The position numbers were made by a program, and so were the translations under genes. This document shows, piece by piece, positions 209-19,153 of a DNA stretch of 21,884 bases; the first letter of the stretch is position 1, and each line of letters starts with the position of its first letter. The stretch is from a virus, in the IMG/VR virus record IMGVR_UViG_3300020421_002725, positions 1 to 21,884 of that record; one strand, 5' to 3'. The notes under the pieces were generated by a model. The model was not told the origin of the DNA. It worked only from the letters and a program-made list of their open reading frames with translations, and did not search any database.

Positions 209-640
209 CTATAAACTAGCCCTTGTTCCAAGAGTACCGACAGCAGCATTATCTCCTGTTTGTGTTCCCTTGTCATAAGTCCATCCTACACGAGAGTTAT
301 CATTACGCTGATGAGTGATTTTATTGGTAGTGGTGTTGTATGTCCACTCACCATCTGTATCAGCATCATCTGCATCATTGGCATCATATCCAGCAGGCTT
401 TGTTTCTAAAGCATCCCACGGATTAGTAGGCCAAGTTCTACGACCATTATCCATAAGCTGTTCTACCGCATATGTTTCCAACCCAGCTTTAATTGCACTA
501 ATGACCGCATCTTCAGCTGCCTCTTCCGCTTTCGTAACCGATGTCATATATCGAGGAATAGCAACGGCTGCTAAAATACCTAATATGATTGTAACCATTA
601 TAAGTTCGATTAAAGTAAATCCTTTACGGTTGTTAAACAT
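209..640 (-). CDS. type IV pilin-like protein (143 aa)
   Basis: The N-terminus carries a canonical prepilin motif: leader MFNNRKG, cleavage after Gly7, mature FTLIELIM with Glu at +5, then a hydrophobic helix typical of the pilin stalk and assembly domain. The rest is a short polar head containing an Asp/Ala-rich stretch (about residues 88-95) and ending in many Gly/Thr/Asn residues. Length fits minor or major pilins and pseudopilins. AGGAG lies 7 bases before the ATG and supports the start. It follows another pilin-like gene by 11 bases and precedes a third, so the three look like one operon. No cysteines are visible, so the disulphide loop of many type IVa pilins is absent. No assembly ATPase or prepilin peptidase is in the window; host machinery would be needed. 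Confidence 0.9.
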   Translation of the reverse strand: MFNNRKGFTLIELIMVTIILGILAAVAIPRYMTSVTKAEEAAEDAVISAIKAGLETYAVEQLMDNGRRTWPTNPWDALETKPAGYDANDADDADTDGEWTYNTTTNKITHQRNDNSRVGWTYDKGTQTGDNAAVGTLGTRASL

Positions 641-651
641 TTTAGTTCTCC

Positions 652-1299
652 TTACGGTTGTAGTTTCTTTTTAAAGTTATTTGGGTTTTCCAAGTCAGCA
701 ACATACAAGATTGGTGCGTAAGAGGAAGCTCCACTTCCACCACCTGGTATAACTGCGTAAATGTAATGACCATCCTGAAATGGTGTCTTGATTGGGTTTC
801 CACCAAACTGGTCTAAGAATTCCTCTCCACCGTTTGATATTGTAAAGCTACCATCGTTATCAGGATTTTCTGCTGTACTGATACTGTTACCACTTGGAGC
901 TAGAGCTTCTGTATTAAGTGTACCGAATACAGATACCCAATTAGCACCTTCTTCATCATCATAAGATGAGAATGAAGCAACACCAGTCTCTAACAAATCA
1001 GAAGTGGAATATCCACCTATCTGTTCGTCATATTTAATCTGGCCAGGAAATCTTCCACGACCTTCTTCTGTTACTTTGGCATTATAGAAGTTATTAGCAG
1101 ATTTGACAATTTTATCAATATCAGCTAGTGTCTTCTTTTCTTTAGCACCTTCACCAACTCCTGAAAACTTAGGAGCAGCTGTTGTAGCCAACGTAGCCAT
1201 CATCGCTGTCGTTACAGCAAATTCAGCAAGTGTGTTACCACGAGTACTCTTAATTGTTTTGAACATCTTTTTTATGATGTTGATTATTGTTTTGAACAT
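652..1299 (-). CDS. divergent pilin-like protein (215 aa)
   Basis: The start is placed at MFKTIINII because AAGGAG sits just upstream; the longer frame from 1341 has no ribosome site. A 21-residue basic leader (with a duplicated MFKTI) ends at Gly21. The mature end then reads NTLAEFAVTT with Glu at +5, followed by an Ala/Thr-rich hydrophobic helix and Pro, so it resembles a class III signal with an atypical +1 Asn instead of Phe. The head domain of about 150 residues is Gly/Ser/Asn-rich with no cysteines. It is the first gene of the three-pilin operon and sits directly behind the candidate promoter at 1354-1381. Pilin fold likely; assignment as minor, major or pseudopilin is open. Confidence 0.75.
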   Translation of the reverse strand: MFKTIINIIKKMFKTIKSTRGNTLAEFAVTTAMMATLATTAAPKFSGVGEGAKEKKTLADIDKIVKSANNFYNAKVTEEGRGRFPGQIKYDEQIGGYSTSDLLETGVASFSSYDDEEGANWVSVFGTLNTEALAPSGNSISTAENPDNDGSFTISNGGEEFLDQFGGNPIKTPFQDGHYIYAVIPGGGSGASSYAPILYVADLENPNNFKKKLQP

Positions 1300-1331
1300 T
1301 TCAGTTCTCCTTGTATTTATATTATAATCTA

Positions 1332-1378
1332 GTACCACCACGGTACATCTTATACTATATAATGTACAATAACTGTAC
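1332..1378. repeat. paired GTAC palindromes flanking the pilin promoter
   Basis: Two perfect 5+5 bp inverted repeats with 5-base spacers occur: GTACC-ACCAC-GGTAC at 1332-1346 and GTACA-ATAAC-TGTAC at 1364-1378. Their centres are 32 bp apart, close to three helical turns. One overlaps the candidate -35 and spacer and the other lies just past the predicted transcription start. This is the geometry of a repressor operator pair. No regulator is identified. Confidence 0.5.
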
Positions 1379-2561: not shown

Positions 2562-2705
2562 TTATCTCCCGTATGTACTTTTAACTACATTACTATTTTT
2601 TTCTAACCACTTCTTATGTTGATTAGCTGTCCTACCTTCTGTCGCCCATTTTTTATTTAACTTAGCTCTTTGCTGTTTTCTTAACTTTGCACCTTTACTA
2701 GGCAT
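2562..2705 (-). CDS. small basic protein (47 aa)
   Basis: This short gene fills the gap between two larger genes. Its ATG overlaps the upstream stop as TAATG, and its stop is followed 2 bases later by the TTG start of the next gene. The product is rich in Lys/Arg with KLRKQQRAKLNKKW and TANQHKKWLEKN stretches and no hydrophobic segment. It resembles, from memory, small basic proteins scattered through marine T4-like phages, but I cannot name a family. The charge would suit nucleic-acid binding; that is only inference. Confidence 0.65.
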   Translation of the reverse strand: MPSKGAKLRKQQRAKLNKKWATEGRTANQHKKWLEKNSNVVKSTYGR

Positions 2706-3301
2706 TAGTTGTCTCCATCGTAGAATGTTCCTTCTGGATCCATTCCTATTTCAATATTCTCAAATACCAATAATGCTATTTGTAATTCATCTCTGTATGG
2801 ATTATAGAACTGACCATTTACTATACCAGAAACTTTGTTATCTTCTATTTTAGTTATTTCAGCTTGACCAAAATTTGTATAATCTTGACTACCAATGATT
2901 TCTAAGTTAATTGTTTTATCTCTATCCAAAGTATCTTCAGCTCCGTAATTTAAGTACATACCAGCATCTATTAAATCACTATTATCTTCGGCATCATTAT
3001 CATACCATATAGTTGCATAATGTTCTAATGTTGGTAGTACCCTACCTACTTCTCTTTGAAAGTGAAAAACCAATAGTTTCTTTATCTTACCATCTTCACC
3101 TAATGATTTGCTTCCAAAAGTTGTTATTGAACCATAGTAAGTATATGGATTTATTGGATCTCCATTTACCCACATCTGCATAGATGGTTCTAATACCACT
3201 TCTTCCTCTACTACTTTATCTTCACAACTTAATGTAAATATAGAAAGTATTCCTATTAAACAAAACAGTTTTACATTATTATATACCTCGTAATATTTCA
3301 T
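2705..3301 (-). CDS. predicted lipoprotein (198 aa)
   Basis: The start is set at the second Met because the GGGG ribosome site is too close to the first. A hydrophobic stretch (about residues 11-24) ends in FTLSC with Cys26 as the likely lipidated residue, so signal peptidase II processing and membrane anchoring are expected. The mature part begins with an acidic EDKVVEEEVV tether and continues as a soluble domain with many Tyr/Asp/Asn residues. The domain is unknown to me. It sits directly downstream of the candidate outer-membrane protein in the same operon, so a joint role at the host envelope is plausible. Confidence 0.6.
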   Translation of the reverse strand: MKYYEVYNNVKLFCLIGILSIFTLSCEDKVVEEEVVLEPSMQMWVNGDPINPYTYYGSITTFGSKSLGEDGKIKKLLVFHFQREVGRVLPTLEHYATIWYDNDAEDNSDLIDAGMYLNYGAEDTLDRDKTINLEIIGSQDYTNFGQAEITKIEDNKVSGIVNGQFYNPYRDELQIALLVFENIEIGMDPEGTFYDGDN

Positions 3302-3312
3302 TTTCATTCCCC

Positions 3313-4605
3313 TTAAAATCCCATGAACTGATAGTTAACACCTAATTTGATATCGTATGCTGGTCGTTCCCAATAATACAGATATCTCCCCTCAGCAAAG
3401 ACTCCAAGATTATCCTGTATCTTTACTCCAAATATTGCACCCATGTCATAATCATTCCAATCATGCCACATAGCATCTTTAAACTCAAACTCATGTGGTT
3501 TACCTTTTAAGTCTAAGTGGTCTTGGTAATGTGCAGCATTGTGATAAGCATGCATGTCATGACCATAATGTATTGGTAACCAATTACCCCAAGTGTGTAG
3601 CCACCAACTATCACCGTAGTGATAAAAATCTAATCCAATTACCAACGAGGTTTCATTTTGATTACCCAATGCTTTTTTCTTACCATCAATATATTCTTCT
3701 AACATACCTGGAAAGTGATATATAAAATATTCTCTATCTGTATATGCAAATATCCTACCTTCAGCATCTCTCCATAACCAATCATGTCCCCAATACTCAC
3801 CACCTTCATTCCAAAATGGACCGTCACCTTCTATTGGAACAAGTTCACCTGTTTCAGTATCATACTCAAATAATTCTTGATTTATCCAATTTCCATCTTC
3901 ATCTATCATTGTTGGATCAAACCACATATTATCATCAACACCAAATGCTGTTTCAGCAAACTTCCACCACTGACCTCTGTACCATGTAGTATCCAATACC
4001 ATCGCATCAAATCCATATACAGGATGTTGCCTATGCTTTACACCAACTGATAAATGTAATTTGTTACCTAATGCTTCTGGTGTTAAATGAACTCTTAAAT
4101 CAGCATGTGTATAATGAATATCTTCTAATCCCAATTCGGTCATACCAACTTTAGCCATTAAATAGTCACCAATGTATCTTAACCAATATTCTTGATTTAC
4201 ATATTCATTACCCCATTGACGACCTTCTGACCATTTGATTAAATATTCCCATCCTTTAACAGGTCCGAATGTTGCACTTTCGTTAGCATTTTGTTCTGAA
4301 CCATCATACCAAGTTCCACCTTTACCAGCACCCTTAACACCACGCTTTGGTTCATATTGAAATCTACCTACCTTTCTCAAACCAAATGATGTTTGGAAAT
4401 CAGGTTTTAAATCTCTATCCGTTCTCTTTACTTCTAAAGTACCTGTGGATAACCCACCAATAATGGCAAACCTATCATCTTGATATCGTGGAGCATTCAG
4501 ACTAAAACTGGCATATGCAGTAGAGTACTTAAAAAAGTCTCCGATTATATTTTGACTTAGTAATGATGTGGTTAATAATAAACCCATCATAAGTTTTTTT
4601 AACAT
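3313..4605 (-). CDS. candidate outer-membrane beta-barrel protein (430 aa)
   Basis: An N-terminal signal peptide of about 17 residues ends near LLSQ. The mature protein is exceptionally rich in Trp, Tyr, His and Gly, with alternating strand-like stretches such as LHLSVGVKHRQH, TSLVIGLDFYHY and DIKLGVNYQF. It ends in Phe, as substrates of the BAM machinery commonly do. No catalytic motif is visible. A long acidic Trp-rich section (about residues 220-300) could be an extracellular loop or plug. AGGAGAG supports the start. It leads a co-directional run with the lipoprotein. Alternatives are a secreted binding protein or a receptor-like decoy. Confidence 0.5.
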   Translation of the reverse strand: MLKKLMMGLLLTTSLLSQNIIGDFFKYSTAYASFSLNAPRYQDDRFAIIGGLSTGTLEVKRTDRDLKPDFQTSFGLRKVGRFQYEPKRGVKGAGKGGTWYDGSEQNANESATFGPVKGWEYLIKWSEGRQWGNEYVNQEYWLRYIGDYLMAKVGMTELGLEDIHYTHADLRVHLTPEALGNKLHLSVGVKHRQHPVYGFDAMVLDTTWYRGQWWKFAETAFGVDDNMWFDPTMIDEDGNWINQELFEYDTETGELVPIEGDGPFWNEGGEYWGHDWLWRDAEGRIFAYTDREYFIYHFPGMLEEYIDGKKKALGNQNETSLVIGLDFYHYGDSWWLHTWGNWLPIHYGHDMHAYHNAAHYQDHLDLKGKPHEFEFKDAMWHDWNDYDMGAIFGVKIQDNLGVFAEGRYLYYWERPAYDIKLGVNYQFMGF

Positions 4606-5868: not shown

Positions 5869-6699
5869 TCAATTCCTTATTTTATAAAAGTAGCGGTTGG
5901 TAACTGTAGGTTCATCGTAGGTTTGTTTTTGAATCCACATTGATAAAGTTTCTTCTGCAGATAAGTGACCAAGTTCATAATTATCTTGATACCTTTCTAA
6001 AAGATCTGCAACTATAGGATGTCTAACAACATCTTCTAAATCGAACTGACTGAAACCAACTCTTCTAATTCCAGTGAATCTTTTTATTGCATCTTCTAAT
6101 CCATTTTCATTTTTTATATCAGACTGCATCAAATCACCATTTATAATATATTTACTCCTATCACCTATACGGGTTACGAAAGTTTTTATCTGTGATGGTG
6201 TGGAATTTTGTGCTTCATCCAATACGACTATACTATCAGTTAGGGTTAATCCTCTCATATAAGCTAAAGGAATAACTTGTACAACTCCAGCTCTTTTTAG
6301 AACTTCTAATCTTTGCTTTCCAATTATCTGTTCCATATTATAATAAAGAGACATCATATAAGGCATTGTTTTTTCGTCAATGTCTCCTGGTAAATATCCC
6401 ATCTTTTCTCCATCCACTTCTACTAATGGTTTTGTTATTACCATCTTATCATACTTACCTTTTGCCAAGTTTTTCAAAGCATAATGTGTTGCAAGAAATG
6501 TTTTTCCACAGCCTGCAGGTCCTACTGAAAAGGTAACATCATTACGACTGATTGTATGATAGAAACTTTTCTGATTTGGTGTTCGAAACTCTAATGATCT
6601 CCAATCAATTCTTTTGATTTGAGAGAGTGCTTGTCTTTTGTTTTCGCAGGTTTGATTTGATTTGACTTGTGTAACAGTTTTTACCTTGGATTTATCCAT
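5869..6699 (-). CDS. phoH: PhoH-family ATPase
   Basis: A P-loop protein of 276 residues. Walker A is GPAGCGKT at residues 60-67, Walker B is VVLDEAQN at 158-165, and SQIKTFVTRIG and IINGDLMQSD follow in the order expected for the PhoH ATPase core. PhoH-like genes are very common in marine phages and are related to the N-terminal helicase-like domain of superfamily 1; the phage role is unresolved, with RNA-related functions suggested. The N-terminal 40 residues are a Lys/Gln-rich extension and the last 40 a helical tail. GAGGAG precedes the ATG. A 73-base gap with a TATAAATATA element lies upstream. Confidence 0.93.
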   Translation of the reverse strand: MDKSKVKTVTQVKSNQTCENKRQALSQIKRIDWRSLEFRTPNQKSFYHTISRNDVTFSVGPAGCGKTFLATHYALKNLAKGKYDKMVITKPLVEVDGEKMGYLPGDIDEKTMPYMMSLYYNMEQIIGKQRLEVLKRAGVVQVIPLAYMRGLTLTDSIVVLDEAQNSTPSQIKTFVTRIGDRSKYIINGDLMQSDIKNENGLEDAIKRFTGIRRVGFSQFDLEDVVRHPIVADLLERYQDNYELGHLSAEETLSMWIQKQTYDEPTVTNRYFYKIRN

Positions 6700-7015: not shown

Positions 7016-7348
7016 CTATATACCACCTCGTATGTCGTGTTGTGCTTTTGTATATTTTTTATCATCAATGTCTGATGAGTCTGCCATTATAGTAACTCCA
7101 GGTGGTGAATTATATCCCTTTTGTATTCCGGCCTTTTTTAATCTATCTTCTACCATATCAGATAAATCACCTGTACCTTCAGGATTCTTCTTTCTAAAAT
7201 AATCTCTACCTAAAGCGATAGTAATTTTATCTTCATCATTTAGATGAATTGTAGCACGAACTTTTATATCCTTTAAAGCTTTGACTATTTTATCAAATGT
7301 TTTTTTATCTGATTTGTTTTCAATTACTAAATCCTTTAACTTAATCAT
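7016..7348 (-). CDS. putative capsid-targeted internal protein, paralogous leader 1 (110 aa)
   Basis: The N-terminus MIKLKDLVIE ends in Glu10, the shared decapeptide of this cluster. The body is a small basic-acidic protein with KALKDIKVRATIHL, DKITIALGRDYFRKK and a Gly/Ser/Asp-rich end. It overlaps the upstream gene by 4 bases. In T4, decapeptides of this form route internal proteins into the prohead and are removed by the prohead protease after Glu10. This copy has Val rather than Leu/Ile at position 8, so it is the weakest match. Body function unknown. Confidence 0.6.
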   Translation of the reverse strand: MIKLKDLVIENKSDKKTFDKIVKALKDIKVRATIHLNDEDKITIALGRDYFRKKNPEGTGDLSDMVEDRLKKAGIQKGYNSPPGVTIMADSSDIDDKKYTKAQHDIRGGI

Positions 7349-7779
7349 ACCTTAACCTTGTATTTGTTTTTTAACATCTTCTCAACATCTTTTTGTGTCT
7401 TTCCGATTACCATATCCATATTTTTAGTAACCTGTATAGATTTATTAGATATGTTCATACCAAACTTTCTTTCTTCTATATCTACTTCGGCTGCAATTGC
7501 ACTCACAAATCTTCTTGGTCCCATATTTACTTTTCCGTGATGTACACCTTTCTCATCATATGTCGCAACCACCTTAGCATTTTCTGCAGCTTCTCTAGAT
7601 AAGTTTCTACCTATCTCAGACTTTAATATTTTCTCAGCAGATTGAGCAGCTAAACCAGCAGCTCTACCTTTAGACATTAGCTTAAAATTTCCAACCGGCT
7701 TGTTAAAGTTTCCCGTACGTGGTTTTGATACTAATGCAACATAGAAACTTTCTTTTAATAATTCTTTTAGTTTAATCAT
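7345..7779 (-). CDS. putative capsid-targeted internal protein, paralogous leader 2 (144 aa)
   Basis: The leader MIKLKELLKE with Leu8 and Glu10 matches the L-x-E pattern of T4-type prohead protease sites, followed by Ser. The mature part is basic, with YVALVSKPRTGNFNKP, a helical SAEKILKSE stretch and a Lys-rich C-terminus. It overlaps both neighbours by a few bases. Sequence beyond the first ten residues is not obviously similar to the neighbours, so the shared leader looks like a targeting tag on unrelated cargo. No enzymatic motif is visible. Confidence 0.65.
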   Translation of the reverse strand: MIKLKELLKESFYVALVSKPRTGNFNKPVGNFKLMSKGRAAGLAAQSAEKILKSEIGRNLSREAAENAKVVATYDEKGVHHGKVNMGPRRFVSAIAAEVDIEERKFGMNISNKSIQVTKNMDMVIGKTQKDVEKMLKNKYKVKV

Positions 7780-8245
7780 ATCTCTTATCCTTTAAGATTT
7801 CTTTCATCATTTTAGCTTTACCCAATATATAATCTATACTATCTACAACATCTTTATCATTTTGAGTTCTAATAGCTTTGTTTAGAGATTTCATCTCCAT
7901 AGCAAGATACTTAGCCTGACCTTTTATCTCAGAGTATCTTCTTGGATTCATTTCCTCTTTAACAGATTCTAACTTACTAAGATTTCTTTTAATAATTTTT
8001 TCAGCTGATTTATCTGCACTTAATTTATCTTTGTGTTTACCTAACTGAATCTCATATCTATTTTTATTTTTGGTGATTATTACAGCAAACCATTCACCAT
8101 TATTCTTTTTATATAACCACGCTTTTCTAAAATATCCTGAAAAAGACATCTCACCAGCATACTCTGCACCAAAGTATTGTACGGAAACATTCTTTACCTT
8201 CTTAATCTGAGGTGCTTCTGTTAGTAAGTCTTTTAAATTAATCAT
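7772..8245 (-). CDS. putative capsid-targeted internal protein, paralogous leader 3 (157 aa)
   Basis: The leader MINLKDLLTEA gives Leu8-Thr-Glu10 followed by Ala, the cleanest prohead-protease-like site of the group. The mature part has a beta-rich half (VSVQYFGAEYAGEMSF, WFAVIITKNKNRYEIQLG) and a basic helical half rich in Lys. The protein is strongly basic overall, as expected for something packaged with DNA. It overlaps its neighbours by 8 bases on each side, so translation is probably coupled. No domain name can be given. Confidence 0.65.
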   Translation of the reverse strand: MINLKDLLTEAPQIKKVKNVSVQYFGAEYAGEMSFSGYFRKAWLYKKNNGEWFAVIITKNKNRYEIQLGKHKDKLSADKSAEKIIKRNLSKLESVKEEMNPRRYSEIKGQAKYLAMEMKSLNKAIRTQNDKDVVDSIDYILGKAKMMKEILKDKRYD

Positions 8246-8537
8246 CTCTAACCTTTTTTAGTTCTTTGATTAAATTTTCTATCGTAAAGTATGTTTGTCT
8301 ATTGAATTGAGAGACTACTAATTCTTTGTGTTTTTTCAGTAAACCTTTAGCATCGTTGACTGTCATATTTTCTAGCTTGCCTTTTCCCGCATTTCTTGTT
8401 ACTAAATTAAAATACTTTTCGTAGCTTTTAAAACCTTCCTCATAAGAGTCTAAATATTTTTTCAAATATTTGATTTGTTCTTTAACTTCTGTTAAATCAC
8501 CTTTGTTTTCGTTTAGTAATTTTTTTAACTTTACCAT
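8238..8537 (-). CDS. putative capsid-targeted internal protein, paralogous leader 4 (99 aa)
   Basis: The leader MVKLKKLLNE again has Leu8 and Glu10. The remainder is a Lys/Glu-rich helical, probably coiled-coil, protein (EVKEQIKYLKKYLDSYEE, LIKELKKVRDD) without Cys. GGAG stands 9 bases before the ATG. It is the first of the four genes with this leader and overlaps the end of the larger basic gene upstream by 7 bases. The role is inferred only from the leader and position. Confidence 0.6.
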   Translation of the reverse strand: MVKLKKLLNENKGDLTEVKEQIKYLKKYLDSYEEGFKSYEKYFNLVTRNAGKGKLENMTVNDAKGLLKKHKELVVSQFNRQTYFTIENLIKELKKVRDD

Positions 8538-9466
8538 TTCTTACAACTCCAATAACGAGCTTTATGTCTTGGTCCTGGTGAATCACAATTATGTCGTGCC
8601 CTAAAGTTAGCTCTTGCCTTAGGATTGGACTTTCTGATTCTCATTGTACCACCTTTGGCATCTCCTCCTTGACCAAAGTTTACCTTTACAACATTACCCT
8701 TATCATTCTTTACATATACTTTAAATTTTTTAGAGTCACCTTGCATTGGCTTATTGAGTTTAACCTTACGACCTTGATACTCAGCTTCTACTAATCCTGT
8801 AAATGTACCGCCGAAAGATCCATCTTCCATCCATATATCATATGCTTCTTCTAAACCTTCTTTCACGCCCTTTCCACCCATTTGTTTGTAAAGTTTAATT
8901 AAGTTGGATAAGTGTTCCTCATCTCTGGCATTAGTAACTCTACCTTGTTTCTCAATTTTCTTTTGAAACATTTTGATAGCATCTTTGATTTTATTTAGTT
9001 CCATAGAAGCTTCATTCACACCTTCTTTCTTTGAGTTACCCCAATTCTTGGCACCAACTTTTCTACATTTTACCAAAGCACCACTTGCATAAGCAGAAGG
9101 CCATACATCGTAACGAGCTTTAACCTTATGGTAACAAGCATCCTTCTTACCAGCAGCCTCATCGAACTGTTCTTCTGTAAGTCTTTTACCTACTACTTCT
9201 TCTAATTTTAATCCCATTTTACTTTCCTCTTGTTTGTCGTAATAATCCTTTGGATGAAATTTCATCTCCACTATCTTTCCATCTTTCGCAATACTCTTCC
9301 CATCTACTATTATCTCAACAGGATATGGTTTATTTGGTTTATCATACCAATAAGCCATCTTATACCCACCGTTATCCAATAGCTCGACTAAAAGACCTCT
9401 ATCATAATCTTCGTCCTCAGCTTTGAGAACCTTTACCTTTCCTCTTGGTAAGATTAAATCAGCCAT
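8531..9466 (-). CDS. probable virion-associated basic protein (311 aa)
   Basis: Three parts are visible. Residues 1-80 form a beta-rich start; 105-150 carry a Cys-containing motif (CYHKVKARYDVWPSAYASGALVKC begins at 111 and is given here only by its ends, C111 and C134); and the last 60-65 residues are a basic region with FRARHNCDSPGP and YWSCKKW. Both the Cys motif and this C-terminus recur, as far as I recall, in proteins of marine T4-like phages, but I cannot name a family. Internal L-x-E sites (LEE at 205-207 and LVE at 225-227, each before Ala) would be possible prohead protease sites. It starts one base inside the stop of the next gene upstream. Confidence 0.6.
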   Translation of the reverse strand: MADLILPRGKVKVLKAEDEDYDRGLLVELLDNGGYKMAYWYDKPNKPYPVEIIVDGKSIAKDGKIVEMKFHPKDYYDKQEESKMGLKLEEVVGKRLTEEQFDEAAGKKDACYHKVKARYDVWPSAYASGALVKCRKVGAKNWGNSKKEGVNEASMELNKIKDAIKMFQKKIEKQGRVTNARDEEHLSNLIKLYKQMGGKGVKEGLEEAYDIWMEDGSFGGTFTGLVEAEYQGRKVKLNKPMQGDSKKFKVYVKNDKGNVVKVNFGQGGDAKGGTMRIRKSNPKARANFRARHNCDSPGPRHKARYWSCKKW

Positions 9467-10671
9467 TATTTCTTTGGTTTAGTAGAAACGTATATTGGCT
9501 TCTTACCCTGTCCTGCAGATTGTTTACCACCTCTACCAGCTTTGTTCTGTGCTGCTCTCTTCCTACGAGTTGCACTAGCTTTTTGTTTCTTTGTCATACC
9601 AGCAGCTTTGGAAGCTGGTACGCATTTAGCATATCCACGCTTCTTACCACTACTACCACAAGGTGGATGACCACCACCTTTTTTCTTTTTACCAATGTTC
9701 ACCCATTTCTGCTTGAACCACTTTCTTAAATTTTCATTTGTAAAGTCACCACAATTAATACAGATGTTATCAGCTATTATACCAGCTTGTTCCATAGTCA
9801 TTGTAGTATCGACTCCTTCTTTCTTTACACAGTTTCTATATCTCTTACCAAACATAATCTTTGTCTTACGGGTAGGATGTGTCATATATCCTTTTTGACA
9901 AGCTTCGTCTAAATCAAATTTTTTCTTAGATTTCAATAACTTCTTTTTTATCAGATGAGATCCTGCTGGTTCTTCTCCCAACTTACCATCTACTCCATAA
10001 CCACAAGTTCCTTCTCTGTAAACTATATTACCTGCTTTAGATTCTATACCGATAACATGGTTTGGATACTTATCTCTCAAATCAGACATTTCTGCTGGAA
10101 GCTCTTTTAGATTTTTTACAAGTACTCTTTTTACTATCTTATTGTTTTTACTTACAATGATATCCCAAGGTCCGACTTTGGGTCCTTTACGAACAGACTT
10201 CATCATACTAGAAGTATTTTTCATATCTTCTTTTATTTTAGACATCCATTCCAAACCAGGAACAACTATATCTTTTACTTTAAATTTCTTCTCAAATTCT
10301 TTTTTAGCTTTTACAAACTTTTTTAAATGAGATGGTAACTCGCCTGTTTTATTAAATTCATCTCGCATATTTTTAATCTGTGATTTTGTCATGCTCTCAC
10401 CTAAGCTTTGAAGTCCTACCAGTGCTATAGCTTTACCTCTTGGAGTTGAGTTTCTATATGTTTTATTTACATACTTTAGATTCTTATTAATCATAGACAT
10501 TGCGTCTTTTTGATTATTCCCGTACTTTAAAAGTAATTTATATATCCTTTTTATTTCAGGATTTACTTTTTCATCAACAGATTCGTTTTTTTGCACTTGA
10601 ATTTTGGCTTTTGATTTTATAAAGTCATTTAGCTCTGATAAAACTAAGCTTTTTAATTCATTTTTGGTCAC
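9466..10671 (-). CDS. probable virion-associated basic protein (401 aa, GTG start)
   Basis: The start is set at GTG 10671, because GGAGATA lies just before it; the TTG at 10683 overlaps that ribosome site. The new N-terminus (TKNELKSLVLSE after the start) resembles the leaders of the cluster downstream and ends in L-S-E at 11-13. The middle is Lys-rich. Around residues 260-290 there is an ACQKGYMTHPTRKTKIMFGK region. The C-terminal 80 residues (KWVNIGKKKKGGGHPPC, YAKCVPASKAAGMTKKQ, then Arg/Lys/Gly) look like the basic DUF5872-type tail of marine phage proteins; that name is from memory. A DNA-associated head component is the best guess. Confidence 0.6.
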   Translation of the reverse strand: MTKNELKSLVLSELNDFIKSKAKIQVQKNESVDEKVNPEIKRIYKLLLKYGNNQKDAMSMINKNLKYVNKTYRNSTPRGKAIALVGLQSLGESMTKSQIKNMRDEFNKTGELPSHLKKFVKAKKEFEKKFKVKDIVVPGLEWMSKIKEDMKNTSSMMKSVRKGPKVGPWDIIVSKNNKIVKRVLVKNLKELPAEMSDLRDKYPNHVIGIESKAGNIVYREGTCGYGVDGKLGEEPAGSHLIKKKLLKSKKKFDLDEACQKGYMTHPTRKTKIMFGKRYRNCVKKEGVDTTMTMEQAGIIADNICINCGDFTNENLRKWFKQKWVNIGKKKKGGGHPPCGSSGKKRGYAKCVPASKAAGMTKKQKASATRRKRAAQNKAGRGGKQSAGQGKKPIYVSTKPKK

Positions 10672-10697
10672 TTCTATCTCCAATAAATCTATACAAT

Positions 10698-10724: not shown

Positions 10725-11666
10725 TTAATTTAAATGTAACTCTTTATATTTTTGTACGGCTAACTCTTTGTGTTTTGCCTCAATCATAATATCAACATCA
10801 TTACCATAAGTGTCAATGTAATCGTACACATAATCAGAATGGGCTTGAGGTCTAATTGATTCGTCAAGTTGTTCGGCACTACGACTTTCGCTATAGTGAA
10901 CAACTGGTACAATATCCTCTGGCCAAGTAGAACAAGCCAATTCCAAAGCAGCCTTTTCTGATAAGTCACCTGTACAAAACTTATGATGATGATAGTCAAA
11001 AACGATAGGTATACCAATTCGTTTGTAAACTCCATTGTATAACTCCTTTACTGAATACATTGATGCTTTGTCATCATTCTCAACCGTTAGCCTACTCTGA
11101 ACTGATTCTGGTAATCTTTCAAAGTTCTTACAGAATCTTTCCATAGCTGCTGGTTTATCTCCATATGCCCCACCAATGTGTATGTTAATTTTATTATATG
11201 GTGTTCTACCTAAACCAATCATATCAAATACATCACCATGATCGGTTAAGTCACCGATACAGTTTTCGACAACATGCTTGTGTGGTGAGGTGAGAACATT
11301 AAACGGACCAGGATGTGATGTAATTCTAACATTATGTGTTTTAGCTACCCAACCAACAGAATTAAGATATCCTTCAATCTCAACTATATCTTTCAAATCA
11401 TTCCATTTATATTCAGACTTCCACGGTGCTAAGCCTGATGTGATACGAAAGAATTTATACCCATTGATTACATTCCATTGTACAATTTGATTCAAGTCCT
11501 TAACATTCTGTAAAGTTAATTCGCTTGCATAATCCACACCTTTTGATTCAAAGGTTCTTTTAATCATACTACGACCTGTGGTAACTGGTTTTATACCTTT
11601 TTCTTTACCACCATATTTTTGGGGATAACTTAACTGCATATTGATACATGCGTAACCTATATTCAT
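10725..11666 (-). CDS. uvsE: UV DNA damage endonuclease (UvdE/UvsE family)
   Basis: The family cleaves DNA 5' to UV photoproducts and other lesions using a TIM barrel with a metal cluster. The expected motifs appear in order: IGYACIN at the start, SHPG at 117-120, HIGG at 163-166 with GDK after it, ENDD at 196-199, DYHHH at 224-228 and HYSES at 257-261. These supply the His, Glu and Asp metal ligands. Length (313 aa) is normal. The start is set at MNIGYAC, which overlaps the upstream stop as ATGA and has GGAG 9 bases upstream; five extra residues in the longer frame are spurious. It is last in an operon with the MazG-like and dUTPase genes. Confidence 0.93.
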   Translation of the reverse strand: MNIGYACINMQLSYPQKYGGKEKGIKPVTTGRSMIKRTFESKGVDYASELTLQNVKDLNQIVQWNVINGYKFFRITSGLAPWKSEYKWNDLKDIVEIEGYLNSVGWVAKTHNVRITSHPGPFNVLTSPHKHVVENCIGDLTDHGDVFDMIGLGRTPYNKINIHIGGAYGDKPAAMERFCKNFERLPESVQSRLTVENDDKASMYSVKELYNGVYKRIGIPIVFDYHHHKFCTGDLSEKAALELACSTWPEDIVPVVHYSESRSAEQLDESIRPQAHSDYVYDYIDTYGNDVDIMIEAKHKELAVQKYKELHLN

Positions 11667-11908
11667 ACTAAACTGCTCCATTTTTTTAATTTTTCTTTTT
11701 TAATTTTTACTCTTTTTTCAACATCATCCCAACTGATTAAATCATATTCATGTAACAGTTCAATCATACAATAAACATCACCAACTTCTTCAAGTAGTTT
11801 TTTATTGTCATGATAATCATCACATCTAATTGCTTTACTACAGGCCTGTATTAACTCTCCACACTCTTCCATAGTGATGGTTAGTAGTTCTTGTAATTTA
11901 TCATTCAT
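11663..11908 (-). CDS. MazG-like nucleotide pyrophosphohydrolase (81 aa)
   Basis: A short all-alpha NTP pyrophosphatase of the MazG/dUTPase-2 superfamily. The metal-binding pattern ExxE...ExxD is seen as EECGE at residues 14-18 and EEVGD at 40-44. Members hydrolyse (d)NTPs to NMP and pyrophosphate and often clear non-canonical nucleotides; marine phage versions are common. It is at the short end for a single MazG domain. It overlaps dut by 4 bases and uvdE by 4 bases, so all three genes are translationally linked. Confidence 0.85.
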   Translation of the reverse strand: MNDKLQELLTITMEECGELIQACSKAIRCDDYHDNKKLLEEVGDVYCMIELLHEYDLISWDDVEKRVKIKKEKLKKWSSLV

Positions 11909-12360
11909 TTTCCCGTACTCCCAAATCCACCATCACCCCTATCGGTTTCTGAAAGTTTGTCTACAACACCTACCGTAAATGGATATAATGTTGGATGTAC
12001 TATTTGAAATAATCTTTGACCTGGTACTACCATATAATCCTTATCACCGGTATTATCTACAGATGCCATTATCTCTCCACGATAACCAGCATCAATAATA
12101 CCGATAGAGTTAGACATTCTTAACGGTGTTTTAGAAATACTACTTCGTGGAACCAACATATAACTAACGGGTAAATACTCATCTGTCATTTCACAAGCAA
12201 TACCCATTTTGATTAAATATGTTTCACCTGATTCTATTAATAATTGGTCAGGACAATATAAATCTAATCCAGCATCACCATCGTGTATAGCATTCCAATC
12301 ATTATAAAACGGATATAGATTTGAATCATCATCTAATATTTTTATTCTTAAATCTACCAT
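11905..12360 (-). CDS. dut: dUTP diphosphatase (dUTPase)
   Basis: A trimeric dUTPase that converts dUTP to dUMP and pyrophosphate, limiting uracil in DNA. All five conserved motifs are present: DAGLDLY (29-35), PRSSISK (71-77), the NSIGIIDAGYRGEI block with Asp90, PGQRLFQI (113-120) and RGDGGFGSTG (141-150), the Gly-rich C-terminal arm that closes over the active site. The length of 151 is normal. GGGAGAAGAG precedes the ATG, which lies inside the end of a small upstream gene. The enzyme looks intact. Confidence 0.97.
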   Translation of the reverse strand: MVDLRIKILDDDSNLYPFYNDWNAIHDGDAGLDLYCPDQLLIESGETYLIKMGIACEMTDEYLPVSYMLVPRSSISKTPLRMSNSIGIIDAGYRGEIMASVDNTGDKDYMVVPGQRLFQIVHPTLYPFTVGVVDKLSETDRGDGGFGSTGK

Positions 12361-14203: not shown

Positions 14204-14379
14204 TCAACCACCCTAAAATAATGCTCAGTACAACTTATAGTTTTACCATTTATATCCTGTATACCTAACCTAACAGTATACATATGGGTGTCTTCATTCG
14301 GTACACTAACTATTGTACCAGTTCCAAGTGAAGATGCTTTGAATTCAACAACATCATTTATTTTTATTTTATCTTTCAT
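14200..14379 (-). CDS. hypothetical protein, SH3-like pattern (59 aa)
   Basis: The frame is held by overlaps on both sides: ATGA with the VOC gene stop and ATGA with the PC4-like start. Alternating strands (KINDVVEF, GTGTIVSVP, MYTVRLG) with a Gly-rich turn suggest a small beta-barrel, like SH3/KOW-type folds. Two residues (Cys and His) near the C-terminus are not part of a clear metal site. Assignment is only structural impression. Confidence 0.55.
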   Translation of the reverse strand: MKDKIKINDVVEFKASSLGTGTIVSVPNEDTHMYTVRLGIQDINGKTISCTEHYFRVVE

Positions 14380-14675
14380 TTTACATCCTTATAAGTAATT
14401 ATTTCTACCATATTACCGTAACCATCGTGTTCATATTTAGAACGGCTACCATCCCTATGTACATCACCACCTTCCAATTCATCATCTATAATAGCAATAT
14501 GTGGTGGGTGTTCTGCGGGTAATACTAAAGCTAGTTTTGTGTTTTCAAATTTCAGTAAGGCCCAAGATTGGTCTTCGTATTCTACTTCACAATTAAAATT
14601 TTTTTTATAAAAAGCTACACCTCTAGCTATATGTGTAACTTGTACAGCAACGTGGTCTATATTATCTAACTGCAT
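14376..14675 (-). CDS. VOC/glyoxalase-fold protein (99 aa)
   Basis: The start is MQLDNIDHVA, supported by AGGAG 5-6 bases upstream; the longer frame runs through the SWIM gene. The pattern is that of the vicinal-oxygen-chelate fold: DHVAVQV with His8, then ARGVAFYKKNF, a strand ALLKFENTKLALVL, His near 59, and GNMVEII with Glu91 near the C-terminus. Possible metal ligands are His8, His59 and Glu91. Proteins of this fold include glyoxalase I, dioxygenases and fosfomycin-resistance proteins; the substrate cannot be told. It overlaps the SWIM gene by 14 bases. Confidence 0.75.
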   Translation of the reverse strand: MQLDNIDHVAVQVTHIARGVAFYKKNFNCEVEYEDQSWALLKFENTKLALVLPAEHPPHIAIIDDELEGGDVHRDGSRSKYEHDGYGNMVEIITYKDVK

Positions 14676-14880
14676 AATGTCTCCTAAAAGATTCTGATAA
14701 TTCTGTAATGTGCCTACACTTCTTTCTATAAATATAACCTTTACATTGACAACTGTATTTTTTATTATATTTATCCCATTCCACAATATACCGCTTACCA
14801 TTAGAACCTTTCATAGTCCATTGATTATCTTCTATAATAACACCATCGAATGTTTCTATTATTTTTTCTAATAGATTCAT
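14662..14880 (-). CDS. SWIM zinc-finger protein (72 aa)
   Basis: A C-x-C-x8-C-x-H pattern is formed by Cys44, Cys46, Cys55 and His57, which is the SWIM zinc-binding motif found in proteins that bind DNA or other proteins. Upstream residues form a strand pair typical of the domain (WTMKGSNGKRYIVEWD). It is basic after the finger (SFRRHYAVR). Start and upstream stop overlap as TAATG. A nucleic-acid-binding accessory role is likely. Confidence 0.75.
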   Translation of the reverse strand: MNLLEKIIETFDGVIIEDNQWTMKGSNGKRYIVEWDKYNKKYSCQCKGYIYRKKCRHITELSESFRRHYAVR

Positions 14881-15143
14881 TATAATCCTTTTGCTAGTGT
14901 CGGTGATGTATTCATAACTTCATCAAATGTAACATCTTCATCAGCCCACCTTTCTATTGGATCTAATTGTTTATCAGTTACAATAGCTTTTTCAATTTCA
15001 TCTTTTAGATGGTACAAGTCACACCTCGCACCATCTATATAACCCTTACCTTCTGAGTTAGCATCGTACTCAGGTAGGTTGTAGTAAGCATCATCTAACT
15101 GACCTTCTATGTCTACAAGCCTTTCTAATATTTTTTTAAGCAA
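14880..15143 (-). CDS. hypothetical protein (87 aa, TTG start)
   Basis: The best start is the TTG at 15143 with GGAG 7 bases upstream; the earlier TTG is only one base from that site, and no ATG is available. The product is an acidic helical protein (LDDAYYNLPEYDANSEG, DLYHLKDEIEKAI). It begins inside the last codons of the upstream gene. No family recognised. Confidence 0.6.
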   Translation of the reverse strand: MLKKILERLVDIEGQLDDAYYNLPEYDANSEGKGYIDGARCDLYHLKDEIEKAIVTDKQLDPIERWADEDVTFDEVMNTSPTLAKGL

Positions 15144-18225: not shown

Positions 18226-18819
18226 TTACACATAAATAAATTTTTTCTCTCTTACCCATATATTTGCTCCCCACTTCTCACAATCAATTGGTGGTTTAGC
18301 CTCATGAAAACTATCTTCAATTAAATTTCCATCAATTGAATTTCTCCAAAAAACAACTCTACCAGCCAATGGTTTAACTTGAATATTGATATTTGGAAAG
18401 TTTGTCTCACCACCTTCTTTAACATCATTGAGATATAAAAAGGCTGTCCAAGTTCTTTGACCACCACATCTTGCTTCCTCTTTATAGTAATCCATCCACG
18501 GATAAAAGTAATCATGATGTGGTTTGTAAAACTCACCAGACTTATAATGTACAAGTTGCATACCTTCACAATTTTGCAATGGAACTTTTATAATATCAGT
18601 AACCGTACTGAATACTTTGTCAACGGTCTCCATACCATTATTATAATATAAAAAAGTATTAGAGCTTGTTCTGAAATTTTCTTGAACTGGTTCTAAAGTA
18701 CTAGATGGTTCGAGAGTTGGTTTGCCTAAAAGTATTAGTCGTTTGCAGATATCCCTCGATACAAAGTTATCTGCAACCCAACCAAACTCAATACCATCTT
18801 GTGTCTTTAGTCTAAGCAA
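18226..18819 (-). CDS. prolyl 4-hydroxylase-like 2OG/Fe(II) dioxygenase (197 aa)
   Basis: The 2-oxoglutarate/Fe(II) core is clear: His101-x-Asp103 in KPHHDYF and His172 in SFHEAKPP are the iron ligands, Lys182 ten residues later fits the 2-oxoglutarate anchor, and GGETNFPN and AGRVVFWRN sit between. The family hydroxylates protein prolines or other substrates and is frequent in marine T4-like phages; the target here is unknown. The start is set at the TTG 18819 with GGAG 7 bases upstream; the GTG at 18837 has no such site. It starts 8 bases inside the preceding gene. Confidence 0.9.
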   Translation of the reverse strand: MLRLKTQDGIEFGWVADNFVSRDICKRLILLGKPTLEPSSTLEPVQENFRTSSNTFLYYNNGMETVDKVFSTVTDIIKVPLQNCEGMQLVHYKSGEFYKPHHDYFYPWMDYYKEEARCGGQRTWTAFLYLNDVKEGGETNFPNINIQVKPLAGRVVFWRNSIDGNLIEDSFHEAKPPIDCEKWGANIWVREKKFIYV

Positions 18820-19153
18820 TAGTCTGCTCCATCTCACCCCACATTAAAAGACTACAGTAAAGTATCTCATCACCTATAGTCCAATCCCTACCGTGCCATC
18901 CACAACCTTCAAGTTCAGGAAAATTATCTTCCCAATAAATCTCACCAGTATCATGATTATATATCTGTTGAATGTGAACTTCCTCGTCTATATAATTCCA
19001 AACCACAGCAAAGTTCTCACAGTTATCCATATCATCATACTCATTGCAAAACTCATCCATTAGTTGAAAGAAAGGAACTTCTCTAAAAGGCGGGTCTAGT
19101 TCCTCAACACCGATTATATGATTTCTAAAGTAAATTGTTTCGTTTAAGTTCAT
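18812..19153 (-). CDS. acidic hypothetical protein behind promoter P4 (113 aa)
   Basis: The start is moved to MNLNETIY; the AAAAAGGGAAAAAA ribosome site lies immediately upstream, and the longer frame begins at the transcription start. The product is strongly acidic with many Trp/Tyr/Asn residues (NEYDDMDNCENFAVVW, DTGEIYWEDNFPELEG) and four Cys, with no clear pattern. It is the first gene of the P4 transcript, followed by the dioxygenase. Unknown function. Confidence 0.65.
   Translation of the reverse strand: MNLNETIYFRNHIIGVEELDPPFREVPFFQLMDEFCNEYDDMDNCENFAVVWNYIDEEVHIQQIYNHDTGEIYWEDNFPELEGCGWHGRDWTIGDEILYCSLLMWGEMEQTIA

Follow-up and report, generated by a model that had tools for sequence, protein, structure and literature searches.

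A shared N-terminal decapeptide on adjacent phage proteins as a probable T4-like capsid-targeting propeptide with variable cargo

Why do four adjacent phage proteins begin with nearly the same ten residues? The window, the whole stretch of DNA analysed here (the complete IMG/VR record IMGVR_UViG_3300020421_002725, 21,884 bases, itself a genome fragment without head genes), carries four consecutive minus-strand ORFs that raise this question: 7016-7348 (110 residues), 7345-7779 (144 residues), 7772-8245 (157 residues) and 8238-8537 (99 residues). They begin with MIKLKDLVIE, MIKLKELLKE, MINLKDLLTE and MVKLKKLLNE (leader codons at 7319-7348, 7750-7779, 8216-8245 and 8508-8537), followed by cargos of 100, 134, 147 and 89 residues. 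All four have ATG starts, and neighbours overlap by 4, 8 and 8 bases. The net charge is positive in every cargo, the second and third being basic and the fourth Lys-rich; Pfam and PHROGs searches with the four cargos gave no function and no match worth naming.

A first-pass annotation had aligned the four decapeptides without gaps, with Glu10 throughout and Leu8 in all but one, which has Val8; the alignment is as quoted there, and translation of the ORFs confirms the residues. In BLOSUM62 comparisons over residues 2-11, the six pairs of leaders score 22-32, and when the window's 44 N-termini were shuffled 5000 times, six pairs all at 22 or above never occurred, which rules out chance similarity. 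The conserved residues are written in differing synonymous codons (for example Lys3 as AAG or AAA, Leu4 as TTA or CTA, Leu8 as TTA or CTA); conservation therefore acts on the peptide, and a DNA-level start element is ruled out as well. Positions 4, 7 and 8 are hydrophobic and position 10 is Glu, as at the targeting and processing positions of T4. The leader ends in [L/I]-x-E exactly in three of the four ORFs; in 7016-7348 the P3 residue is Val8 rather than Leu or Ile.

We consider it very probable that M-[IV]-[KN]-L-K-x-L-[LIV]-x-E is a cleavable, T4-like capsid-targeting propeptide for packing into the head, with cargo that is probably ejected into the host. During prohead assembly the decapeptide would dock small basic proteins, otherwise unrelated, to the scaffold inside; a T4-type prohead protease (gp21, Peptidase_S77) would then cut after Glu10, and the mature cargo would stay in the head with the DNA until its probable ejection. 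Docking, cleavage, encapsidation and injection are steps that we infer from the observations below.

The leader genes form a variable cassette between two conserved markers, a PhoH-like ATPase (5869-6699, minus strand; PF02562, 226 bits) and a UvdE-like endonuclease (10725-11681, minus strand; PF03851, 195 bits): the PhoH gene is followed by the leader ORFs, two large basic proteins and then UvdE. This order is identical in one relative, G001, and the position of PhoH is kept in relatives. Six related contigs (G001-G006, PhoH 88-92% identical) each have in the same neighbourhood roughly 3-6 short ORFs bearing the leader or a close variant. Their cargos turn over, some having orthologs at 51-100% identity and others no counterpart. 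The ORF at 7016-7348 has an ortholog in G006 (31638-31970; 80% identity in the leader, 73% in the cargo), 7345-7779 has orthologs at 99% and 57% identity, and 7772-8245 has an 86% identical counterpart in another relative, with the leader MIKLKKLLTE.

The two large basic neighbours touch the same theme. The 311-residue protein at 8531-9466 (minus strand; phrog_727) lacks the leader, but its last ~88 residues are found in three other loci (L173, L242 and L204; 69-75% identity over 88 residues) behind leaders of the window type, which we call class I, and over all phages with such modules the identity is 64-75%; it is therefore a candidate head-internal protein. The very basic protein at 9466-10683 (minus strand) has 405 residues from a TTG start at 10683, and modules of it lie behind class I leaders in L242 and L213 (45-56% identity). 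The first-pass annotation, counting 401 residues, had suggested it as a possible fifth member. It does not carry the decapeptide; what stands of the suggestion is that its N-terminus, MEIEVTKNELKSLVLSEL, is class-II-like, a weak fit to the second leader type described below with no Glu at the expected place. The G001 homolog has an ATG start and the N-terminus MEITVTKNEFRNLVVSEL.

Other genes of the window deserve brief mention. A 430-residue protein with a signal-like N-terminus (3313-4605, minus strand) and its lipoprotein-like neighbour (2705-3307, minus strand) recur near PhoH in relatives; for the former there was no Pfam match, and a search of bacterial genomes, made as a host search, found no relative. 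A phage-encoded type IV prepilin-like protein (209-640, minus strand) carries the PF07963 methylation motif, GFTLIELIMVTIILGILAAVAIPRY; it has relatives in G001 (54240-55115) and G006 (29873-30762), two such genes are adjacent in relatives, and a third protein, with NTLAEFAVTTAMMATLATTAAPKFSG, adjoins it in the window (652-1341). Anything similar to the prepilin-like proteins occurs in only three phage records of the annotated collection. The minus strand also encodes a 2OG-Fe(II) oxygenase (18226-18837), a dUTPase (11905-12360), MazG (11663-11908) and a protein with a weak thioredoxin match (1528-1905).

Does this lineage have the protease that such a leader would need? The 125.6-kb relative G001 has a T4-type portal (phrog_213, 240 bits), but both it and the window stop before the protease, so that the head module falls outside both. 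An S77 profile search of G001-G008 gave no match because these contigs end before the head module or miss it. Two contigs whose portal is 92% identical, L045 and L046, continue into it: L045 encodes a Peptidase_S77 protease (14324-14923; PF03420, 95.3 bits) and a Gp23 capsid protein (PF07068, 250 bits), and the protease and capsid evidence in relatives includes a phrog_207 match (184 bits). The Gp20 portal (G001), S77 protease and Gp23 (L045) thus stand in T4-like order, as in a T4-like myovirus. The first-pass annotation had held that a lineage lacking any gp21-type protease would speak against a capsid-targeting tag; in the nearest relatives with a head module, the protease is present. The window's own genome presumably has one too, since relatives with a 92% identical portal do.

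The head module itself contains the leader. The gene order in L045 and L046 is protease, a protein of 206 residues with MIKLKDLLKE at its N-terminus, a gp22-like protein (named by position and N-terminal character alone) and the major capsid protein. In the relatives read, a leader M[AS]NIKLKDLLxE heads a conserved protein between the protease and the gp22/gp23-like genes, and this protein is kept in portal loci that reach its position. An alignment of 12 sequences shows no change at Lys3, Leu4, Lys5, Leu7 or Glu10 but free variation over residues 11-15. The AlphaFold2 model of this protein (mean pLDDT 51) has a low-confidence helix at residues 4-11; it and the model of window ORF 7345-7779 (mean pLDDT 41) are too poor for a fold search. 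The capsid protein has an I-x-E site of its own near the N-terminus (LENQATQLIKE, followed by A). In one locus (L119:9888-10934) the head protein with the leader continues, as an in-frame fusion, into another domain, which opens with an internal MLKLKDLINE, as if the product were a polyprotein of two cargos to be cut apart.

We compared the leaders with T4 propeptides. In the T4 capsid-targeting sequence (CTS), residues 4 and 7 account for most of the targeting and residues 8 and 10 govern processing; with Asp10 the sequence still targets, but processing is blocked (PMC9026906). T4 gp24 starts with MAKINELLRE, and its first ten residues are reported to be removed by the prohead protease (PMC9958956); the T4 internal proteins likewise lose about their first ten. 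With the gp24 propeptide as query against 2,496 N-termini (20 other genomes or contigs), the best match is window ORF 7345-7779, and leaders of the window type fill all of the top 14 places. For the second-best window match, 8238-8537, only 9 N-termini (its own among them) score as high or higher, and for 7016-7348 and 7772-8245 the number is 57. The first-pass annotation had drawn its parallel with the T4 internal-protein leader MKTYQEFIAE, which scores only 3-7 against the window leaders, at about the 90th-96th percentile of all N-termini. The parallel thus holds for a T4-type propeptide, best seen through gp24, but not for the sequence quoted: the classical internal-protein leader was rejected as closest relative because gp24 fits better. 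MKTYQEFIAE is the T4 version and no requirement of the mechanism. Unbiased clustering of N-termini recovered the T4 ipII/ipIII leader as a positive control. T4 itself (NC_000866) has a 54-residue minus-strand ORF at 18966-19130 whose start, MKTFKEFIKE, resembles the internal-protein leader.

To see how far the leader extends, we scanned IMG/VR for MIKLK[DENK][LIMF][LIMF]xE as degenerate DNA. The scan gave at least 120 loci with at least 153 sites; among the matches listed, 149 of 153 sites lie at the start of an ORF that is 60 residues or longer (median 152). Other cargo behind the leader in related phages, which the first-pass annotation had proposed to look for, was abundant: at least 145 distinct proteins in at least 93 families without detectable relation. 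Two or more sites, often 2-4, occur in 23 of the 120 loci among the matches listed, and Leu or Ile stands at position 8 in 137 of 145 leader proteins, again among the matches listed. With residue 10 alone changed to Lys, the control matched 119 loci, each with a single site, and ORFs of at least 60 residues in 56 of 119; with Asp instead, the whole collection contained 57 sites, without any cluster. Glu10 is thus strongly preferred over Asp10, although some true leaders have no Glu at position 10. Recapture of 4 of 22 independently known Glu10 sites among the matches listed puts the total at ~800, a rough figure based on four recaptures. S77 was present in 15 of 24 long Glu10 contigs versus 11 of 26 Lys10 controls, an excess that is not significant; its frequency fails to discriminate because T4-like phages are common in both sets. 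In a general test of the N-terminal core motif, a significant Glu excess appeared only in the window clade and in G040 (below), with none in T4, Melnitz, immuto, Mel-JY01, RM378, G019, G035 or the G009 group, which makes the test unusable as a detector on its own. The cultured relative Microcystis phage Mel-JY01 has MIKLKSLLQE on one 216-residue protein (ORF 60276-60926).

The cargos elsewhere include RimK-type ATP-grasp proteins, phage lysozyme, M23 peptidase, NUDIX, exonuclease and HD proteins, and a P-loop kinase of zeta-toxin type. Pfam gave no support to an ADP-ribosyltransferase identity suggested by eye for some others (YYHGT, LYHFTS). In the genomes at hand, leader proteins have a median of 128 residues versus 176 for others and are more basic (+0.044 versus -0.013 net charge per residue; p = 2.5e-10, uncorrected for relatedness). 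The kinase is especially informative. Its front ends are MIKLKDILNE, MIKFKKFMTE, MIKLSDILKESNIIE, MIKLKNLLSKKALNE and MDKLTEFLIKPFLTE, and MKTFAELQE in the Kyanoviridae phage Melnitz; leaders differ between phages in length and type while the junction stays constant. In 13 of 14 variants, most of them chosen without regard to Glu10, the residues immediately before the conserved start G-x-x-D-P are [L/I]-x-E, and in the remaining one they are M-x-E. Such a pattern is expected from a protease that cuts just in front of the cargo.

A second leader type occurs in relatives. One contig, G040 (IMGVR_UViG_3300007770_000522, L503-L504), has the class I leader on 8 ORFs and MKITKSQLRQIIREEIQxLNE on 9 within 25942-36535, the nine being placed around the prohead protease. 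An IMG/VR scan for this class II leader (MKITKxQLKxIIKE) used MKITKx[QE]L[KR and others]xII, leaving Glu14 outside the pattern, and found at least 120 loci, two or more sites in 47 of 119 analysed, and at least 187 proteins in at least 156 families. Glu14, which gives I-x-E, is present in 184 of 187 among the matches listed. The class II spacing L-x-x-I-I-x-E equals L4-x-x-L7-L8-x-E10 of class I and Y4-x-x-F7-I8-x-E10 of T4. Each class resembles a head protein, class I the one just upstream of gp22 and class II one downstream of the portal, MSKMDKLKEIIRELIK. The cultured Flavobacterium phage immuto has class-II-like leaders; MKKSQLRxIIKE and MENFDLKKFLVE are among its leaders, and KNV73_gp095, gp094, gp092, gp080, gp076 and gp072 are its candidate leader proteins. 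Its genome (NC_055915) also has a third candidate leader, MENFDLKKFLVEN, with MENFDLKKFLVENKLTxNSKL on three ORFs (1803-2318, 103806-104354 and 118632-118931).

Could the shared N-terminus have another origin? The strongest competitor, itself improbable, holds that the leader is an uncleaved helix by which proteins dock to some complex of phage or host (with scaffold, RNA polymerase or membrane as examples), giving no route into the virion. A short leader of hydrophobic and basic residues, with a helix in the head-protein model, would suit such a role, but cleavage inside the head is indicated by the preference for Glu over Asp at position 10, the Glu14 of class II, [L/I]-x-E exactly before the kinase start, a leader on a head-module protein and the resemblance to a known protease substrate. 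It is much less probable still that the four genes are tandem-duplication paralogs whose N-termini have diverged least. The cargos of 7345-7779 and 7772-8245 are indeed weakly similar (28% identity over 104 residues; Smith-Waterman score 59, where shuffled sequences average 33; p = 0.003 with six pairs examined), but the other five pairs are at chance, and the same leader heads many unrelated families (RimK-type ATP-grasp, lysozyme, NUDIX, exonuclease and kinase among them), so that tandem paralogy of all four is rejected. The earlier remark that the cargos are not obviously related beyond residue 10 thus stands for five pairs of six, and the leader is a short one common to proteins with otherwise unrelated mature parts. 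A translation-start element in the DNA, or a coincidence produced by coding rich in AT and Lys with starts embedded in short overlaps, has a negligible probability and is already refuted by the codon variation, the shuffles and the loss of clustering when residue 10 alone becomes Lys or Asp.

We return to the capsid-targeting propeptide. The swappable tag proposed in the first-pass annotation is largely supported by the protease in relatives and by the leader on a head-module protein and on many unrelated cargos. The tag system is real and extensive. Its best interpretation is a new version, specific to this lineage, of the T4 capsid-targeting propeptide, and its range of cargo is unusually broad. 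A wider reading is possible, and we offer it tentatively and with some doubt: uncultured T4-like phages may share a general delivery system, in which leaders of at least two types, MIKLKDLLxE and MKITKxQLKxIIKE, would load different cargo sets into the head; the two resemble the N-termini of different head-module proteins, and together they would mark hundreds of injected effector families, including enzymes acting on host ribosome, nucleotides and cell wall, and counter-defence proteins. Because the leader stands on so many unrelated kinds of protein, it could be used to predict which phage proteins are injected. For most of the small genes in environmental phages neither a function nor a relative is known; a leader meaning "packed and cut" would sort such genes, and it is simple enough to be searched for in any genome. 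Proteins that carry it would be candidates for delivery just as infection begins, the stage at which host takeover and defence evasion happen.

Our search of open PubMed Central papers turned up no report of the leader, though one may exist elsewhere; the nearest known systems are those of T4 and the giant phages. T4 internal proteins are small and basic (PMC9026906), and like IPI, IPII and IPIII the window proteins join a ten-residue leader, hydrophobic at 4, 7 and 8 and with Glu10, to otherwise different small basic proteins, with a variable cargo set and an S77 protease in the lineage. Unlike them, they have another leader sequence, far more cargo families and cargos unrelated to the internal proteins, and their encapsidation is a prediction. 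The gp24 vertex protein likewise has a propeptide of ten residues, which is the closest sequence match; however, its propeptide sits on one shell protein, while the window leader sits on a swappable set. In T4-even phages, variable defence proteins lie behind one conserved CTS (PMC3012670), and here too the leader is constant while cargos turn over; what differs is the locus between UvdE and PhoH, the leader, the uncultured lineage and the second leader type in relatives. In SPN3US and phiKZ, cleaved head and ejection proteins are cut after Glu by diverged homologs of the T4 protease, and identical propeptides occur on the diverged paralogs gp53 and gp54 (PMC5694885). Those propeptides are long, with sites of the A-x-E type, in contrast to the short decapeptide found here on unrelated proteins.
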